Shown here one piece after another: positions 4,346-33,688 of a stretch of 33,932 nucleotides of DNA. Source of the DNA: a virus. Under the pieces are notes generated by a model. That model was not told the DNA's origin. It ran no database searches and saw only the letters and a program-made list of their open reading frames with translations. Every line of letters begins with the position of its first letter. Within the stretch, counting starts at the first letter, position 1. The stretch covers positions 1-33,932 of the IMG/VR virus record IMGVR_UViG_3300035698_013900; one strand, 5' to 3'. The translations under genes were made by a program, and so were the position numbers.

Positions 4346-5260
4346 TTATGGTGTTGTAATATAAGTAATACTCATTATTGAACCTATAATCAATTCACCA
4401 TCTAAATCAAAACTGCTCCAAGTTATATCTGAACCTGATAAAATATAACTGTACCCATATATCTGCTCTGAGCTATTTTTTACTTTAACATCTACACTTG
4501 TTGCATTATATGGTGTATTAGATAGTGTTATTTTCTTTGCTGCTATATCAGCAGAATCTAATACAAAAGTTTCTCTAGCCGCTGGAGTAGTAGTATAAGT
4601 TATTGAAACTATAGAACCTATAATTAATTCTGAATCTAAATCCATTCCATTCCAGCTTATATTGTTTCCTGACGCAAAATAACTATAACCATATATTTGG
4701 TCTGGACTATATTGTATTTTTAAATCTACTGACTCTTCAGTAGGAGTATTTGTAACTGTTACAAATTTGTTAGCTAAATCAGTAGCATCTATTATAAAGG
4801 TTTCTCTAAAAGTTGTTTTATTAAATAATTCATTTACAGCACCAATAATAGTTTTATTTGTAGTATTAAAAGAAGTATTAGAAACATCTCCAAGATTAAG
4901 AGCTGTTGTAACGTTAGTATCTTTAAGACCTCCTGTAAGTAGATTTACATTATCACCTATTACAATAGGGTTTAGACTATTACCTGTTTTCTGCCACAGT
5001 TCTATACCAGCATCTATTTTTACCCATATAAGACCTGAAGAATATCTTACTTCATCTCCTGCACTGTAAGTTATTGGACCATGCCCTAAATTCTGAGTAC
5101 CTGCTACACTTACTATTAAATAACTATCTACTGTACCTGTACCATCTACAAGAAATGGAGTGTTTGTAGAAGCGTCCCAATTACCTCGAAACTCTCCTCC
5201 ACCGCCACTACATGACCCTTCTGATATAACATTAATTAAAGGTTGTCTTATTAAAGGCAT
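4346..5260 (-). CDS. Fibre/tail appendage protein with a tandem 77-residue repeat (304 aa)
   Basis: Residues 1-90 contain a Gly-rich patch (SGGGGEFRGNWDAST) and a GDEVRYSSGLIWVKI segment, resembling the carbohydrate-binding or chaperone-like segments found near fibre tips. Residues about 100-150 include KTIIGAVNELF, a motif common in phage fibre stalks. The remainder is two copies of a 77-residue unit beginning RETF at residues 152 and 229. Each unit has the strand order RETF(I/V)(I/L)D, VTVTNTP/ITLSNTP, QIYGYSY, ISWN/ITWS, LDLD or DLDGELIIGSI, and SITY.TTP. The two copies are clearly homologous but diverged, so this is an old internal duplication. It is probably a virion adhesin subunit. No enzymatic motif is visible. 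Confidence 0.65.
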   Translation of the reverse strand: MPLIRQPLINVISEGSCSGGGGEFRGNWDASTNTPFLVDGTGTVDSYLIVSVAGTQNLGHGPITYSAGDEVRYSSGLIWVKIDAGIELWQKTGNSLNPIVIGDNVNLLTGGLKDTNVTTALNLGDVSNTSFNTTNKTIIGAVNELFNKTTFRETFIIDATDLANKFVTVTNTPTEESVDLKIQYSPDQIYGYSYFASGNNISWNGMDLDSELIIGSIVSITYTTTPAARETFVLDSADIAAKKITLSNTPYNATSVDVKVKNSSEQIYGYSYILSGSDITWSSFDLDGELIIGSIMSITYITTP

Positions 5261-27133: not shown

Positions 27134-29962
27134 TTATTCAGTAATTATTATATCTTCAGTAGTACTATCTTCTTTACTAGTTTTCTCTGCCAAAGAAGCT
27201 CTCTTAGCAAAATAGTCATCTAATTCATCTACATAGACTGTTACATTACTATCTACTGTAACAAAAGCCCTATCCCCACCAGCGATATCCTCTCCTAACC
27301 CTGCTTGTTCTACAACTTGATTAATTGTAACACAACCTTTTGAAAGATAAGCTAACAGATTTTCTCTTATTAATTTCTTATCTGCAATATCATATTCTTC
27401 AAACTCAAGACATACTGAAGAAATACCTAAACCTCTAAAAAAGAGTTTATTCAACATTCTCTGCCATCTTCTCTGTCTGGGATTTACAACCCTATTTTTA
27501 TAATTCTCAGACTGAGATGTACCTTTACCGGAACCTAAACTAGCGGAATCTGTAATACCTACAATAGCTGCACTAACTCCATGAGCTACTAATATGGCAT
27601 CCCTATTATTTTTTCTTGTCTCCTGAAATGAACCTTCTAATTTACTATCAGATAGTTTTTCAAATTGAACCTCTACATCACCTCCAGCAGAAGTAGATAA
27701 AGGTATGATAAGCGTTTTATGTGCTTGACCCTTTACTTCCTCAGCAAAATAATGAGTTATCATCTGTTTTACTTCAGGAGTTAATTTCGCACCTTTAATA
27801 ATAATTGCATATTGCGGTACGGTGTTGTATTCGAAGAATTGTAGAAAGTAATCCCTAATGTTAACATTAGCAAAAAGACTTCCTAGAGCTGGTATTATGT
27901 TAGGTATCCCATAGTATATTGATTTAGGGTGGAATTGTTGAATGAATATTATTTCATTAGCAGATTTACGCAAAGAACGTATTTTCTTATTAGGATCTGT
28001 TCTACTTACAAAATTCCATTTTGCACCTTTAAAATTACCATCTTTTTTAGGGTCGTATATAGCAGATTTACCATCAAGATCTCTACGTGTTTTAGAAAGA
28101 ACTTTCTTTCCAAAGGGTAAATAATAATCTGTAGAACCATTAGGATTAGATACTACAAACCCATTCCAATTTTTTAATACTGTCACTCTCTTAGCAGGAA
28201 TGTGATAAAGACGAGCTATTTTCATATCTATAGAACGTACTACTTCTATAGCACCCCATCCTATAGCTTCAAAATCTAAGGCAGTTTTTGTTAAAACACC
28301 CTCAAATTCATCTACCTCATTACAATGGTAAATGAAATCTTGCACCTCTTTCTTATGTTCATTAAAAACAAGATCAGACTCTAAATCAGACGTTCTATTT
28401 AAAGACCAACCTCTTCCAACAGAATCAGTTGATTTTACACTGCAATTATGTGTTACAAAAGTATCTGCTACAAAAGTATTAGTATTAGGTACTTCAAAAG
28501 TATAAACTTTACCTTTGTAAAATTTATCTTTAATGCTTTTAATTGGATGACAGGCATACATATTATCATTAATAGGCAAAAAGAACCCTGCTTTGTAATG
28601 GCTATTAAAAGTACCTTCTCTTAAATCAGTAAATAAATCTATATCTTCGTTACCTGAAATACCTATCTTATAAACTTTAGCCCTATTATTTTTAGTTACT
28701 TCTTTTTGCACATAAAAATTAGTCCAATAACCTAGTGCTTTCAACAACCATAGAACTTGATATGCTAATTGTTTAGAAGTAGTAGCAACTAAATAACTTC
28801 TACCCTTTTGCACAATATTAGTTAAACCTGTATCATGCCCGTCACCATTAAAGTATGAGTTTAAAAGAACCAAGGCATTCCTCTTAGTCATCTTCTGCAT
28901 TATTTCAGGTAATATTCTTTTCCTATAACAAGTTTTACCTCCACAATGTAGCATTACATCAAAAACATTTCTCTTAGAAGAAGATATTTTATACCCTAAA
29001 CTATCCTTCTCATTAAAACCTTTTACTTTACTACCAAAAATAGTATCTAAACAATCAATAACTTTTTTATGATAATCATTCTCTTTTTGATGAAAAGAAA
29101 AAACAGTATGTGTATTTCTTTGAATATGACCACCAGTAGTAGATTTAGTTTCTCTGAAAAAAGATGTATCTGTAGTACTACCTTCTGCTAAATAATAACC
29201 AAGAAGAGACATGAAATCATCGTCCAACTTGAATTCCCCATGTCCATCTACATAAATAGAAGATTCATTTTCCTTTAACTTAGGTACTACGGAGAGTAAA
29301 AAATCTCCTTTCTGTAAATCACTAGCTTTCTTCCAACCTAAAAAAGGTTGAACATTTTTAACAAAAGTATCATAAGTTTCAGACTCAGATAAAGATAAGC
29401 CTCTTTTCTTCCTCATAGACAGATATTTATTATATCTTATTCTCATTTTCCTAGCGTCTTTATCTAAACAAAGATAAGGATGCTCAAAAGTAGGACGTAA
29501 TGAAGTACAATACCCTCTAACAGATATATCTTTAATCTTCTCTTCTATATCATAAGTATAGATAGATGAAACCTCTTCAAAAACCCCATTAATACCGAGA
29601 ACCTTCTCACCCTCTTTAACCGAGGATATATCGACTGTCTCCCATGTACCCTTAACAACAGGAGAATCACCAGGAAAACAGCAACGAAAATGGTTCTCTT
29701 CACTCTCTAATAATTGTGCTAAAACTTCAGGATTAAAAGGAGGATCTACAACATCTAACATATTAATACTACTACCACCATCTAATACATTAGGTATTTC
29801 CTGATTAGAACCATCTAAATTTTTCTGTAGTTGCTCTCGTAAACCAACTGCCGAAGAAGTCATTCTCTTTGATAACTCTGTTGCAGATACTACAGAACCA
29901 TCACCACAAATATATGCTTCTGTTAAAATAATCTCTTTTTTTTCTTCTTTTTTCTTAGTCAT
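27134..29962 (-). CDS. Portal protein (PBSX/XkdE-like) containing an intein (942 aa before splicing)
   Basis: The start is placed at the ATG at 29960-29962 (MTKKKEEKKEI), because an upstream in-frame ATG would add a hydrophobic, basic segment not expected in a portal. The portal is the 12-subunit ring that passes DNA into the head. Its N-terminal residues lead to NHFRC at 90-94, then a 412-residue intein (95-506), then CSVKSTDSVGRGW continues the portal. Later segments fit the family: ALDFEAIGWGAIEVV, IFIQQFHPKSIYYGIPNIIPA, and a long helix-rich end. The spliced length would be about 530 residues, normal for PBSX-type portals. A terminator separates it from the upstream terminase gene. Confidence 0.88.
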   Translation of the reverse strand: MTKKKEEKKEIILTEAYICGDGSVVSATELSKRMTSSAVGLREQLQKNLDGSNQEIPNVLDGGSSINMLDVVDPPFNPEVLAQLLESEENHFRCCFPGDSPVVKGTWETVDISSVKEGEKVLGINGVFEEVSSIYTYDIEEKIKDISVRGYCTSLRPTFEHPYLCLDKDARKMRIRYNKYLSMRKKRGLSLSESETYDTFVKNVQPFLGWKKASDLQKGDFLLSVVPKLKENESSIYVDGHGEFKLDDDFMSLLGYYLAEGSTTDTSFFRETKSTTGGHIQRNTHTVFSFHQKENDYHKKVIDCLDTIFGSKVKGFNEKDSLGYKISSSKRNVFDVMLHCGGKTCYRKRILPEIMQKMTKRNALVLLNSYFNGDGHDTGLTNIVQKGRSYLVATTSKQLAYQVLWLLKALGYWTNFYVQKEVTKNNRAKVYKIGISGNEDIDLFTDLREGTFNSHYKAGFFLPINDNMYACHPIKSIKDKFYKGKVYTFEVPNTNTFVADTFVTHNCSVKSTDSVGRGWSLNRTSDLESDLVFNEHKKEVQDFIYHCNEVDEFEGVLTKTALDFEAIGWGAIEVVRSIDMKIARLYHIPAKRVTVLKNWNGFVVSNPNGSTDYYLPFGKKVLSKTRRDLDGKSAIYDPKKDGNFKGAKWNFVSRTDPNKKIRSLRKSANEIIFIQQFHPKSIYYGIPNIIPALGSLFANVNIRDYFLQFFEYNTVPQYAIIIKGAKLTPEVKQMITHYFAEEVKGQAHKTLIIPLSTSAGGDVEVQFEKLSDSKLEGSFQETRKNNRDAILVAHGVSAAIVGITDSASLGSGKGTSQSENYKNRVVNPRQRRWQRMLNKLFFRGLGISSVCLEFEEYDIADKKLIRENLLAYLSKGCVTINQVVEQAGLGEDIAGGDRAFVTVDSNVTVYVDELDDYFAKRASLAEKTSKEDSTTEDIIITE
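28445..29680 (-). mobile_element. Portal intein with in-frame LAGLIDADG homing endonuclease (412 aa)
   Basis: The intein begins at Cys (codon 29678-29680, CFPGDSPVVKG) and ends VADTFVTHN, with C as the +1 residue of the extein. The block B T..H motif is present (RPTFEHPYL). Two LAGLIDADG motifs fit the dodecapeptide pattern: LLGYYLAEGS at residues 253-262 and LLNSYFNGDG at 366-375 of the portal precursor. The C-terminal block (KVYTFEVPNTNTFVADTFVTHN) is intact. All canonical catalytic ends are present, so it should splice and may still home. The C-terminal block differs from those of the two terminase inteins, so it is a separate lineage. Confidence 0.92.
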
Positions 29963-30004
29963 TATATATAACCTATAAATTAAAAATATATGTGTACGCC
30001 TACT

Positions 30005-30013
30005 ACTATAACA
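30005..30013 (-). promoter_or_regulatory. Weak extended -10 element before the portal gene
   Basis: TGTTATAGT on the minus strand fits TGnTATAAT with one mismatch in the hexamer. It lies between the terminator after terminase and the portal start. No good -35 is visible, because that position falls in the T-run. It is offered only as a possible portal promoter. Confidence 0.25.
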
Positions 30014-30022
30014 CACCAAACT

Positions 30023-30054
30023 AAAAAAAACCATTAATAAAAAAATTATTAATG
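30023..30054 (-). terminator. AT-only rho-independent terminator after the terminase gene
   Basis: Immediately after the terminase stop, the minus strand reads CATTAATAA, a 5-base T loop, TTATTAATG, then G and eight T residues. The stem is perfect over 9 bases but lacks G:C pairs apart from its ends. The long T-run supports termination, probably partial. Confidence 0.55.
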
Positions 30055-30055
30055 A

Positions 30056-33000
30056 TTAACCTACATAAGCATCTAAAAAAGTATTTGATTCTAAGCCTAA
30101 TAATATACCGGCTAATAAATCATAAGCATCAGCATGAAAAGAATGGTCTTTACCTTTAGACCATAAATACTTAATGTTACCTTTGCTATCTAAGTCTGCT
30201 TTTCTTTTAGATTCCAACATCTCTTTAACATACTCTCCACCAAGAATAGACTCAAAATTTCTAGGTAAAATATTCTTCCCTTTTTTTAATCCTGTTACTA
30301 CCTTATCAAGTATATTAGTTCTATCAACATTTAGAATCATCTGCTTACTATCTCTTTTAATTCTTCCGTGCGCACCCTCTGAACCGTATCTACATAACCA
30401 TGTATAACATGGGAATTCGTCCTGGATTTCCTGTACAAGTTTGGCTTCAGGCATAGAATCTATTACCATAACTTCTACTTTAAACAGTTTAACTAAATCT
30501 AATAATTCAGATTTAGTTGCTACTTTACCTATAAACATAGCTCTCCTCTTACCTTCAGGAGTCAATTGAGAAATCCTGACATCAAAATTCTTTCCTACAT
30601 CAACACCCATTGTACAAGCTGTTTTAGAAGAACAGGATTCTATATAAGAGCTATTACCTTTATGTACAAACATTGTATCATCTGCCGTCTTCCTTAAAGT
30701 CTCCACCGTTAAACACATACCTGGAGGTGTATAACATATACCTAAATCAGAATTATAAAAATGTGTCATAGCTGTGACATCACCAAAAGAATCTTGATAT
30801 CTTTCAAACATACTAGACAGATTATTGAAACGACTATTCATCATAGTCACTAAATAACCATCTGATAAAGCACCAGGATTCATCTCAGCCCATTCACCTC
30901 TAGCAAACCTATCCATAGGCAAACCACATTTAGTGCAAATAGGACGAATATCCATGGCTTCGCCCTTTAAAAAACCTGTATCTCTTAGTTTAAAATCGCA
31001 AGGTGAACCATCTGAATCTATTTTTTCCTCTACAATAGTCTTAAACCAATCTATAATAGTATACTCTTTACAATGAGGACATTGTACATGCCACATATTC
31101 TGAGTAGAGCCTTTAAAATGTTTGTTTATTCCAAAACCTTCTACAGTAGGATTTCCTACAAAACGTTTAAACTGAAATTTACTACCTCTTAAACGGTCTT
31201 CACCATATTGTAAATTAATCTGATTACATTGGTCAACCTCTTCAACAAACATAACTGAATTGTGTACAAGTACACCATTAGCAAAAAAATTATGATTCTT
31301 CTCTGTCTGTAAATCCCAAACCTCTGCTAACTTTTTATTCTCATATATACCAGTAACCTCTACCTCTAATATCTTACCACTTCTTTCGTCAAGATATGGC
31401 ATAGTAAAAGTCTTTCCTTTTCCTCTGTAGAGGATATTAACCCGTTTTTCTTCTTTCGATTTAAATTGTGATAACGCTTTTGCTGACTGTAAAACTCTGG
31501 TGAACCATCCTGCATTTTTTTTCTTCTTAATTTTAGATTTGCATTCTGCCTCGCTCTGTAGTCCTTGTCTGCATTTATCACTCTCGCATAAAGTCTGTAG
31601 GCTTCCTTCTTCTTTGTTCGATATATCTTGTCGCTTCCACATTTTGCACACACGTGCACAGGTTTTAAATACTTTCTTATATTGTTGCAAGTAGGACAGT
31701 AAGTAGCCTCCTCCTGTTTTCTCTCCCATTTGTAAAGCAGACTTGGCACAGCATACTTTTTCGTCTGTTTTAAGAACTCTGAGGAATCTTTCATCGGAAG
31801 TTTTACTTGGTACATAGGTTGACCGTCTTTTGTCTTTTTGTGAGTGTCTAAAACATAAGCATCTGAAAAACCCGTGTAGTGTAAATTTTGTGCCATTCTT
31901 TCTACCTCTACTAAAGGAAAAGAATTTACACAGAACATTACTGCCCCATTTTTGAGACACCCATCGTCCATATAAAAGTATGCCCATGAACGTAACGTCA
32001 TACAAGAAGCCAACTCTTCTGTGAATGCTTTTCTGTATGTTTCTCCATGCGGTATATGGCTTGCCTTGAATATTACGTAAAGGTCTTTGTTCCCCACAGT
32101 CTGAAAAGATAAAAAGCTCCCCTTCCCTGCTGAAACAGATGTCAATCCATTCTGGTACTCTTTCACGGACGAGAAAATAATATCTTCGTAAAGTGAGTAC
32201 TTGTGCAAAAGATAATCCTTTTGCTTTGACCCTTGGGCACATTTTAGAGTTGCTGCCTTGTTGTTCTTCTGTGGCCGCAAATATGAGTCTCCTAATGCAA
32301 TCCCTAATGTAGCCTCGAAAGTGTCTGCTGTCAGCTGTACATCCAGTCCTAATCCTGATAAACCCATTGTCTTCTCCTTCTATGCTGTTAATAATAGTTT
32401 CGTCAAACATTGTATCTAATGTTTGCTCTCTATTATTAATATAGCATAAATGATCAGAAGTACAAGTGATTTTAACATTATTCTGTGTGTATACGTCATA
32501 TACTTTCTTAAAGCCTGTGGGGACACATCCCAACACTCTTTCATATTCTAATACACCTAGAATGCTCCTAGTAAGTACTTTATCACCATGCTTAATAGCA
32601 TGTAAGGGTTTATCCCCTATGTCTGTGGCAATTTCAAGGAATTTGAGACATGATGCTGGAAATTCTTTGAAGTCTGATAGAACATTACTTCCACAATTAT
32701 GTACTAAAATACCGTTGGCAAAAAAATTATGGTACTTTTTAGTTTGTATATCCCATACTTCCTCTATAGGATTTTCATATATAGCTATAATAGGTAAAGT
32801 TAAAATCTCATCTGTTTTCTCATCAAAATATTGGACAGTGTTTCTAACTCCTTCATCTCTTCGTAAGACAGACTTCCTTTTTTCCTTAACTTCGTTTTCA
32901 AATTCACTTTCCTTGTCCTCTGTTTGTAATGTACTAAGCCCTCTAGAGTTTCTTTTATCGGTGTTGTCCTCTAATAAATTTTTATTAATAATCGTTTCTA

Positions 33001-33688
33001 ATGTTTGTTCTCTATTATTGATATAGCATAAATGATCAGAAGTACAAGTGAATTTTAAAGTATGTAGGTCATTTTTTACTATCACAGCATAAGTTTTTTT
33101 CTTTCCATTATTTACAACGAAATTAACCTTGTCAACAATCAACTTACCATTAATATAAGAGTATACTGCATCTCCCTCTTTTAAAGCAGTAATTTTTTTC
33201 TTGCCATCTGGAGTACTTACATCAGTATTACTAGACACGCAATATTTCACATTACCTTTACCAAATGATTTCATAACAACATTATCAAAAGAACCTTCTC
33301 CAGCAACTTTCTTCTGTCTTCTATATTCAGGAACAGTAGCTATACATTTATCAATACGATTCTGTACATAAGCCCCACGGGATTCAAATTTAGGTAAGAT
33401 AAAGAATATTGACATTCCTATAGAAGCTGAAGCTAAATGATCTACTACAATGAACTCAGACTTGCAACTTTGCACAGATCCTTGTAGAACCAAATTCTCT
33501 GAAAGGTGGTCATAAAGAGCATATAAATGAGGATTATTTTTAAAATCCATCCTCTCACCATAAGTATTAACATGATGATTAATAGCGAAGTCATTACGCC
33601 TATCTCTTATTTTCATAAGAGCTTCCATTTTTTCTAATCTGATACTATCTTCTATACTAGTTAAACTAGTAGGTACAATACTACCCAT
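30056..33688 (-). CDS. Terminase large subunit (GpA-like) interrupted by two inteins (1210 aa before splicing)
   Basis: After removal of two inteins (150-331 and 347-810) the protein is about 564 residues, a normal length for a DNA-packaging ATPase/nuclease. Residues about 68-80 carry a Walker A-like LQGSVQSCKSEF, an atypical form in which C precedes the key Lys. Walker B is VMFVEEVDQ, starting one residue after the second intein. A CPHC segment near 870 and a second CTKCG near 918 resemble the zinc-binding region of GpA-type terminases. The nuclease acidic residues are visible: GVDVGKNFD (D1030), VIDSMPE (D1077), and DHSFHADAYD (D1181, D1187, D1190). The gene starts one base after the stop of the upstream gene. 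The inteins are described separately. Confidence 0.9.
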   Translation of the reverse strand: MGSIVPTSLTSIEDSIRLEKMEALMKIRDRRNDFAINHHVNTYGERMDFKNNPHLYALYDHLSENLVLQGSVQSCKSEFIVVDHLASASIGMSIFFILPKFESRGAYVQNRIDKCIATVPEYRRQKKVAGEGSFDNVVMKSFGKGNVKYCVSSNTDVSTPDGKKKITALKEGDAVYSYINGKLIVDKVNFVVNNGKKKTYAVIVKNDLHTLKFTCTSDHLCYINNREQTLETIINKNLLEDNTDKRNSRGLSTLQTEDKESEFENEVKEKRKSVLRRDEGVRNTVQYFDEKTDEILTLPIIAIYENPIEEVWDIQTKKYHNFFANGILVHNCGSNVLSDFKEFPASCLKFLEIATDIGDKPLHAIKHGDKVLTRSILGVLEYERVLGCVPTGFKKVYDVYTQNNVKITCTSDHLCYINNREQTLDTMFDETIINSIEGEDNGFIRIRTGCTADSRHFRGYIRDCIRRLIFAATEEQQGSNSKMCPRVKAKGLSFAQVLTLRRYYFLVRERVPEWIDICFSREGELFIFSDCGEQRPLRNIQGKPYTAWRNIQKSIHRRVGFLYDVTFMGILLYGRWVSQKWGSNVLCKFFSFSRGRKNGTKFTLHGFFRCLCFRHSQKDKRRSTYVPSKTSDERFLRVLKTDEKVCCAKSALQMGEKTGGGYLLSYLQQYKKVFKTCARVCKMWKRQDISNKEEGSLQTLCESDKCRQGLQSEAECKSKIKKKKNAGWFTRVLQSAKALSQFKSKEEKRVNILYRGKGKTFTMPYLDERSGKILEVEVTGIYENKKLAEVWDLQTEKNHNFFANGVLVHNSVMFVEEVDQCNQINLQYGEDRLRGSKFQFKRFVGNPTVEGFGINKHFKGSTQNMWHVQCPHCKEYTIIDWFKTIVEEKIDSDGSPCDFKLRDTGFLKGEAMDIRPICTKCGLPMDRFARGEWAEMNPGALSDGYLVTMMNSRFNNLSSMFERYQDSFGDVTAMTHFYNSDLGICYTPPGMCLTVETLRKTADDTMFVHKGNSSYIESCSSKTACTMGVDVGKNFDVRISQLTPEGKRRAMFIGKVATKSELLDLVKLFKVEVMVIDSMPEAKLVQEIQDEFPCYTWLCRYGSEGAHGRIKRDSKQMILNVDRTNILDKVVTGLKKGKNILPRNFESILGGEYVKEMLESKRKADLDSKGNIKYLWSKGKDHSFHADAYDLLAGILLGLESNTFLDAYVG
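31366..32367 (-). CDS. LAGLIDADG homing endonuclease nested in the +1 frame of the terminase intein (333 aa)
   Basis: This 333-residue gene lies wholly inside the second terminase intein, one frame away. Its ATG follows AGAAGGAGAAGACA, a very good ribosome binding site that in the intein frame simply encodes IEGED. Two LAGLIDADG-like motifs are clear: EATLGIALGDS (18-28) and TLRSWAYFYMDDG (124-136), in the style of the LAGLIDADG_2 group. A four-cysteine zinc ribbon follows (C224, C227, C240, C243; CPTCNN and CAKCGS), then a basic C-terminal tail (INADKDYRARQNANLKLRRKK), probably for DNA binding. The stop is at 31366-31368, inside the intein's C-terminal block. The codon composition and motif quality mark this frame as the functional one. 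Role: homing of the intein (inference). Confidence 0.88.
   Translation of the reverse strand: MGLSGLGLDVQLTADTFEATLGIALGDSYLRPQKNNKAATLKCAQGSKQKDYLLHKYSLYEDIIFSSVKEYQNGLTSVSAGKGSFLSFQTVGNKDLYVIFKASHIPHGETYRKAFTEELASCMTLRSWAYFYMDDGCLKNGAVMFCVNSFPLVEVERMAQNLHYTGFSDAYVLDTHKKTKDGQPMYQVKLPMKDSSEFLKQTKKYAVPSLLYKWERKQEEATYCPTCNNIRKYLKPVHVCAKCGSDKIYRTKKKEAYRLYARVINADKDYRARQNANLKLRRKKMQDGSPEFYSQQKRYHNLNRKKKNGLISSTEEKERLLLCHILTKEVVRY
32415..32469 (-). repeat. 55-bp direct repeat copy A (in intein 2)
   Basis: It encodes the block B segment TCTSDHLCYINNREQTL of the second terminase intein. It matches the copy at 32997-33051 at 53 of 55 positions. The copies are in the same frame, 582 bases apart. This is far more similar than the flanking intein sequences. 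Confidence 0.9.
32696..33241 (-). mobile_element. First terminase intein, mini-intein without endonuclease (182 aa)
   Basis: It starts at Cys (codon 33239-33241, CVSSNTDVSTPDGKKK) and ends HNFFANGILVHN, with C332 as the +1 residue. Block B is TCTSDHLCYINNREQTL, and the C-terminal block is EVWDIQTKKYHNFFANGILVHN. Between them there is only a charged linker of roughly 50 residues, so no endonuclease is present. It is closely related to the second intein: the 55-base stretch around block B differs at only two positions, and the C-terminal blocks align along their length. It should still splice, having all catalytic residues. Confidence 0.9.
32997..33051 (-). repeat. 55-bp direct repeat copy B (in intein 1)
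   Basis: It encodes the same block B segment in the first terminase intein, with two base differences from the copy at 32415-32469. The high local identity suggests recent duplication or gene conversion between the two inteins. Confidence 0.9.

Follow-up and report, generated by a model that had tools for sequence, protein, structure and literature searches.

A LAGLIDADG endonuclease gene overlapping a phage terminase intein in the +1 frame, and similar arrangements in other inteins

In textbook inteins, the homing endonuclease and the splicing domain are joined in one protein chain. In the "fractured genes" that Dassa reportedly described in 2009, split inteins have an endonuclease between their halves. 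The ShiLan domain is an HNH homing endonuclease encoded out of frame in a phage methylase, with no splicing domain (Arsenault, Gosselin, Gogarten 2025, PMC11855218). Here we analyze a viral stretch of 33,932 nucleotides (IMG/VR record IMGVR_UViG_3300035698_013900, positions 1 to 33,932; the window hereafter), in which the second of two inteins in a phage terminase gene shares its DNA with a LAGLIDADG endonuclease gene read in the +1 frame. We consider it highly probable that this intein, intein 2, is a class-1 mini-intein with a stand-alone I-SceI-type endonuclease gene in the +1 frame, i.e., a splicing intein accompanied by a separately made homing enzyme.

The second terminase intein and the endonuclease gene within it

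The terminase gene is one continuous open reading frame (ORF) of 1210 residues, whose features are presented in Table 1. Intein 2 has the traits of class 1: a Cys1 nucleophile, a block B TxxH in which T64 and H67 are invariant, a C-terminal HN followed by Ser+1 (...VLVHN/S, the slash marking the junction), and a clean empty site in a homologue, GKGTIKYVGSNVISDFKEFPADAIYVEEVD. The homologue, on another viral contig (L004), is a 53%-identical terminase in which both insertion sites are empty and the sequence is continuous across both junctions; hence, the intein boundaries are sound. Judged from these motifs, intein 2 presumably splices.

Table 1. Features of the terminase gene, its inteins and the overlapping endonuclease ORF (pLDDT: predicted local distance difference test).
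Feature	Position	Strand	Evidence
Phage terminase large subunit gene (GpA type), two inteins	30056..33688	-	phrog_675 2e-53, PF05876, PF14890
Intein 1, 182-residue mini-intein without endonuclease	32696..33241	-	Cys1, C-terminal HN, Cys+1
Intein 2, 464 residues in terminase frame, class 1	31259..32650	-	Cys1, TxxH block B, block F D/H, HN, Ser+1
Splicing domain of intein 2, N-terminal part, residues 1-68	32447..32650	-	pLDDT 78-89 for residues 1-60; Hint/intein folds matched
Intein-frame linker, residues 69-405, predicted disordered	31436..32446	-	pLDDT <50; no Pfam domain
Splicing domain of intein 2, C-terminal part, residues 406-464, end ...HNFFANGVLVHN then S	31259..31435	-	pLDDT 61-87 over most of 411-464; TIGR01443
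Shine-Dalgarno AGAAGGAGA, core AGGAG 6 nt before endonuclease ATG	32373..32381	-	-8.8 kcal/mol
I-SceI-type LAGLIDADG homing endonuclease ORF, 333 residues, +1 to terminase frame, ATG start	31366..32367	-	PF03161
LAGLIDADG motif 1 (DTFEATLGIALGDS), catalytic Asp27	32284..32325	-	D27 invariant in 19 aligned endonucleases
LAGLIDADG motif 2 (...SWAYFYMDDG...), Asp134/135	31957..31995	-	D134, D135, G136 invariant in 19 aligned endonucleases
Endonuclease zinc ribbon CPTC...CAKCG	31636..31698	-	Sequence; aligned with CxxC of L002

When the intein frame was modeled with AlphaFold, a split Hint domain was the sole fold obtained and the middle was disordered; the DNA of this middle mostly codes for the endonuclease in +1. 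In this model, the terminase frame codes for a mini-intein whose long linker is a mere shadow of the endonuclease gene.

The original prediction, made from the sequence alone, had described a complete LAGLIDADG endonuclease with two motifs, a zinc ribbon and a basic tail, lying inside the second terminase intein in another frame, and the present results bear this description out. A profile search of the 333-residue frame yielded PF03161 (LAGLIDADG_2, E 1e-17), and the ORF also matches I-SceI by sequence (E 1e-6). The AlphaFold model of the endonuclease presents a pLDDT of 84.7, exceeding 90 for most of residues 11-210, and its comparison with I-SceI (1r7m) by VIA-align gives a Z of 24.1 and a root-mean-square deviation of 2.3 A over 200 residues. 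Both marks of the I-SceI-type family (PF03161) are present, namely two acidic motifs in one chain and the I-SceI fold, and the C-terminal tail is basic. As the ORF is in the +1 frame, the locus differs from a canonical bifunctional intein, whose endonuclease is in frame with the splicing domain.

Given the same endonuclease family also occurs in 23S rRNA group I introns, the ORF could belong to such an intron inserted in intein-coding DNA. This is extremely unlikely: no Rfam intron match was found in the window, the ORF fills nearly the whole insert and leaves no space for a ribozyme, and the intein frame is open throughout, which is not a need of RNA splicing.

The strong ribosome binding site attributed to the endonuclease is also recovered, since its -8.8 kcal/mol is equalled by 1.4% of the other ATGs on that strand. 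For comparison, the median Shine-Dalgarno energy in the window is -6.3 kcal/mol for 22 gene starts and -2.0 kcal/mol for other ATGs. These values suggest the endonuclease is translated separately, by internal initiation. Overlapping frames are, however, the usual setting of programmed ribosomal frameshifting, and a +1 shift would enter the endonuclease frame, producing a fusion of the N-extein, the N-terminal intein half and the endonuclease. We regard such a fusion as unlikely, because the endonuclease frame is open for just 4 codons upstream of its ATG, which would confine the shift to about 12 nucleotides, and the strong Shine-Dalgarno lies exactly in that stretch. With internal initiation, there would be two separate ORF products, and splicing would be decoupled from homing at the coding level, as originally proposed. 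Given the two functions share DNA and not protein, each may be tuned, lost or transferred on its own.

Constraint on the intein frame

Over the 333 endonuclease codons, the intein/terminase frame contains 0 stops and the third frame contains 28. In 20,000 synonymous shuffles, which kept the endonuclease protein and its codon counts, the intein frame averaged 20.8 stops and had at least 9 in every trial, and the exact probability of zero stops given the endonuclease protein, obtained by dynamic programming, is 2.4e-12. The original prediction was thus right in holding the open frame to be beyond chance, yet its estimate of one in several million was understated.

A stop in the intein frame requires a T at endonuclease codon position 3 ahead of a codon starting with AA, AG or GA. 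When only places where a T-ending synonym exists are counted, third-position T is found at 0/57 stop-forming places against 82/161 harmless places (Fisher 7e-15). The same comparison over five further long stretches of ORF in the window (the terminase C-extein, the portal and three more) yields 66.6% against 66.0%, i.e., no contrast. The zero stops are due to selection for a readable intein frame and not to composition. The rule by which a kilobase-scale overlap on the same strand is maintained is simple and readable: a third base that would form a stop is not used.

The rule extends to the relatives presented in the next section. Among the pooled +1 relatives, a stop-forming T occurs at 0/289 places, compared with 35% elsewhere, and in cyanobacterial DnaX loci a stop-forming A occurs at 0/656 places, compared with 23% elsewhere. 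Endonuclease codon position 3 takes 51-59% of the substitutions in 30 DnaX loci, and the more distant DnaX pairs retain an amino-acid identity of 0.63 when compared in the endonuclease frame but of 0.37 when compared in the intein frame. The two frames are therefore not kept equally: in the endonuclease frame the protein sequence is conserved, and in the intein frame only its openness. This agrees with the earlier suggestion that both are maintained, with the qualification that stop-forming codons are avoided while in the cyanobacterial relatives identity falls much faster in the intein frame than in the endonuclease frame.

In five cyanobacterial loci (L125, L128, L135, L140, L147), the endonuclease ORF is interrupted but the intein frame is still open, in agreement with this unequal constraint. 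Such loci also are what would be expected if the endonuclease were a silent passenger, unexpressed or inactive, and the mini-intein alone mattered. For the window, this explanation is distinctly unlikely, given its ORF is full length and has a strong start site, its zinc ribbon and catalytic residues are intact, and an unselected frame of 333 codons would probably have been broken.

A mini-intein with a separately made endonuclease would work as follows. The endonuclease gene sits in the mini-intein loop that normally holds an endonuclease domain in frame. Ribosomes on the terminase would read through the overlap in the intein frame, yielding a long unstructured linker between the splicing halves, and intein 2 would then splice out, restoring the terminase. 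Other ribosomes would initiate at the internal Shine-Dalgarno and ATG and produce the endonuclease. The presumed target of this enzyme is the intein 2 site of terminase genes lacking the intein; repair would copy the whole intein, with the endonuclease as a rider, into the cut gene. As packaging depends on the terminase, a stop anywhere in the intein frame would be lethal, and the endonuclease gene would have been purged of every stop-forming third-position T.

Out-of-frame endonucleases in other inteins

Scans with a five-row endonuclease profile yielded 80 viral and 80 genome loci, which were sorted according to whether the endonuclease and the C-terminal intein motif share a frame. The classes comprise 59 loci in frame, 51 out of frame, and 65 around which no intein motif was found, these being free-standing, borne by introns or truncated. 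In 48/51 out-of-frame loci (the window and 47 others), the intein frame has zero stops along the endonuclease, against a zero-stop frame in 3/124 control loci, two of which are high in guanine plus cytosine, the third (L116) being a truncated cyanobacterial locus of the DnaX clade. In the in-frame control set, 471 frame-1 stops were observed and 471.3 expected.

The +1 loci (L029, L030, L031/32, L035/36, L037, L038, L043 and the window) are in phage terminases and helicases; L031/L032 and L035/L036 each look like one phage found twice. The +2 loci comprise phage ResIII helicases (FoX3, L068, L100) and 35 cyanobacterial loci, all with the junction DE/CHML and three of them confirmed as DnaX. 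Most out-of-frame loci with a recognizable N junction are at the Walker B site, DE/C. The nearest relative with the layout of the window, L002, has a terminase intein at DE/CQD with the endonuclease at +1; it was the only relative found with the window endonuclease's own peptides, which retrieved none from the GenBank phage set at E 0.01, and a two-row profile search retrieved no relatives of the window's two inteins. The second zinc ribbon of L002 continues in the next frame after an apparent one-base shift, discussed below. In-frame fusion in related elements had been named as evidence that would overturn the original prediction; the distant relatives keep the out-of-frame layout, and in-frame members of the same endonuclease family occur in other inteins.

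Xanthomonas phage FoX3, an isolate, has a helicase coding sequence with an intein at DE/CHH and the endonuclease at +2. The helicases of FoX1, FoX2, FoX5, Murka and M29 are 97-99% identical and are without the FoX3 insert, as would be expected of an element that moved recently. Taken alone, FoX3 gives weak statistics (P 0.04-0.08 for the core), owing to its base composition. An isolate with near-identical intein-free sisters (FoX3 against FoX1/2/5) makes homing by an overprinted enzyme directly testable. The intein-containing FoX3 helicase (L012 1908-4274) is labeled "head morphogenesis" in its RefSeq copy, likely a misannotation.

These loci bear on whether the layout of the window results from an assembly or sequencing error, by which two compensating indels displaced a canonical in-frame endonuclease. 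In favor of such an error, the window is a single metagenomic record, with A-rich sequence at both junctions. Nevertheless, if the true endonuclease were in frame, the "intein" frame would be unselected, yet it has 0 stops against about 21 expected and exact avoidance of third-position T, and the endonuclease has its own Shine-Dalgarno, ATG and stop. Since the same layout is present in isolate phage FoX3 and in bacterial genomes (35 cyanobacterial loci), an error is very unlikely. Judged by these sequences, the out-of-frame endonuclease is a real, recurrent layout of mobile inteins, neither an artefact nor a one-off.

Some results weigh against our interpretation of intein 2 as a splicing mini-intein with a separately made homing enzyme. 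The window is one metagenomic record, and no close relative of it with the same endonuclease was found. Even at harmless places, the endonuclease departs somewhat from the codon usage of the other genes (51% against 66% T), as in a recent import. In L002, the apparent one-base shift is near the endonuclease end (about 4690-4830) and moves the terminase/intein and endonuclease frames equally. No convincing Shine-Dalgarno was found ahead of the cyanobacterial endonuclease ORFs.

In the Pectobacterium phages Ymer and Amona (L020 1617-4727, L021 1650-4760), the helicase is split in two ORFs, both overlapped by the endonuclease ORF, and the locus is annotated as three separate genes. The endonuclease is intact, with 12 intein-frame stops within its domain; over the whole Ymer endonuclease ORF, 13 are observed and 13.3 expected, which is the neutral level. 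This breakage, too, agrees with the unequal constraint on the two frames. The host gene is broken within the intein in both phages, as in fractured genes, and unbroken in the window; going by these sequences, the Ymer/Amona helicase locus is probably a natural split intein. For an endonuclease with its own start, one stop in the intein-frame linker, itself of no use, together with one internal start could turn the gene into a fractured one with a trans-splicing intein, and these loci point to a concrete way in which split inteins may arise. We tentatively raise the possibility, and put it no higher, that overprinted endonucleases form a second widespread mobile-intein architecture, which occurs in several host genes and in two or more registers, and an intermediate between mobile and split inteins.

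Regarding the origin of the layout, the +2 set is one supported clade (Shimodaira-Hasegawa-like approximate likelihood ratio test, 95), and the approximately unbiased test (p about 0.31) did not reject a single origin, whether for the +1 set or for all out-of-frame endonucleases. One tree placed the window endonuclease in a weak grouping with the endonucleases of 23S rRNA group I introns. Such a position would fit the capture of a stand-alone gene, but the window branch is very long, too long for this nearness to be trusted.

In the crass-like phage PhiCrAssBcn18 (L022 1495-3728), the annotation gives the replicative helicase as two pieces, with a LAGLIDADG_2 gene between them; this locus gave no Rfam intron match and no intein motif by the intein-motif model. 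Within the window, inteins 1 and 2 are 52% identical over aligned residues, and their DNA is nearly identical around block B. The intein 1 linker and the overprinted endonuclease tail have a 17-nt stretch in common (P about 0.03-0.05); a derivation of intein 1 by deletion from such an overprinted element was considered on the strength of this match and is not relied on. The portal gene (27134-30034) adjoins the terminase and carries a further intein, with an in-frame LAGLIDADG_3 endonuclease domain, so that three inteins of two architectures are found in two neighboring genes of one phage. The L004 portal also has an intein.

Comparison with known systems

The original prediction knew of no standard example of this arrangement. 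This did not hold, since cyanobacterial DnaX inteins show the layout and published precedents exist. The work of Gorbalenya on non-canonical inteins is said to cover the Synechocystis DnaX intein, and it is probably a precedent for an out-of-frame endonuclease in an intein. Where it deals with overlapping frames, PMC11855218 cites Gorbalenya 1998 ("Non-canonical inteins", NAR 26:1741) and a 2025 preprint by Gosselin et al. on actinobacteriophage inteins ("non-canonical architecture"). Our literature search, which did not extend to these two works, found no text describing an out-of-frame LAGLIDADG endonuclease inside an intein. The features that appear less known so far are how widely the layout occurs, its +1 form in phage terminases and helicases, the exact codon rule and the connection with fractured genes. 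The large uncharacterized middles of long inteins (e.g., DnaX) deserve checking in the other frames before being labeled "endonuclease-free".

Canonical LAGLIDADG inteins (PI-SceI, PI-PfuI, and those of the KLEP7 RNA ligase and of actinobacteria) have the endonuclease at the same loop of the splicing domain as the window; however, it is fused in frame, and their other frames have a neutral number of stops (59 loci). I-SceI and the 23S rRNA group I intron endonucleases have the fold and family of the window enzyme and are separately translated ORFs in a self-splicing element, as the window ORF probably is, but their host is a ribozyme intron and that of the window an intein. In split inteins, the endonuclease gene is also apart from the splicing halves, whereas the window gene is continuous and its splicing would be in cis.

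ShiLan shares with the window an overprinted homing endonuclease in a phage gene, an open host frame and a disordered host-frame product. It differs in that its enzyme is of the HNH type and its insert stays in the methylase, whereas the window has a complete class-1 splicing domain and its insert would be removable by a functional-looking intein. The cyanobacterial DnaX inteins (Ssp DnaX type), located at the Walker B site DE/C, resemble the window in being class-1 inteins whose LAGLIDADG_2 endonuclease is out of frame and whose intein frame has no stop (35/35 loci). They are unlike it in the register of the endonuclease (+2, against +1 in the window), in the host gene, in the endonuclease clade, which is separate and well supported, and in having no clear Shine-Dalgarno.
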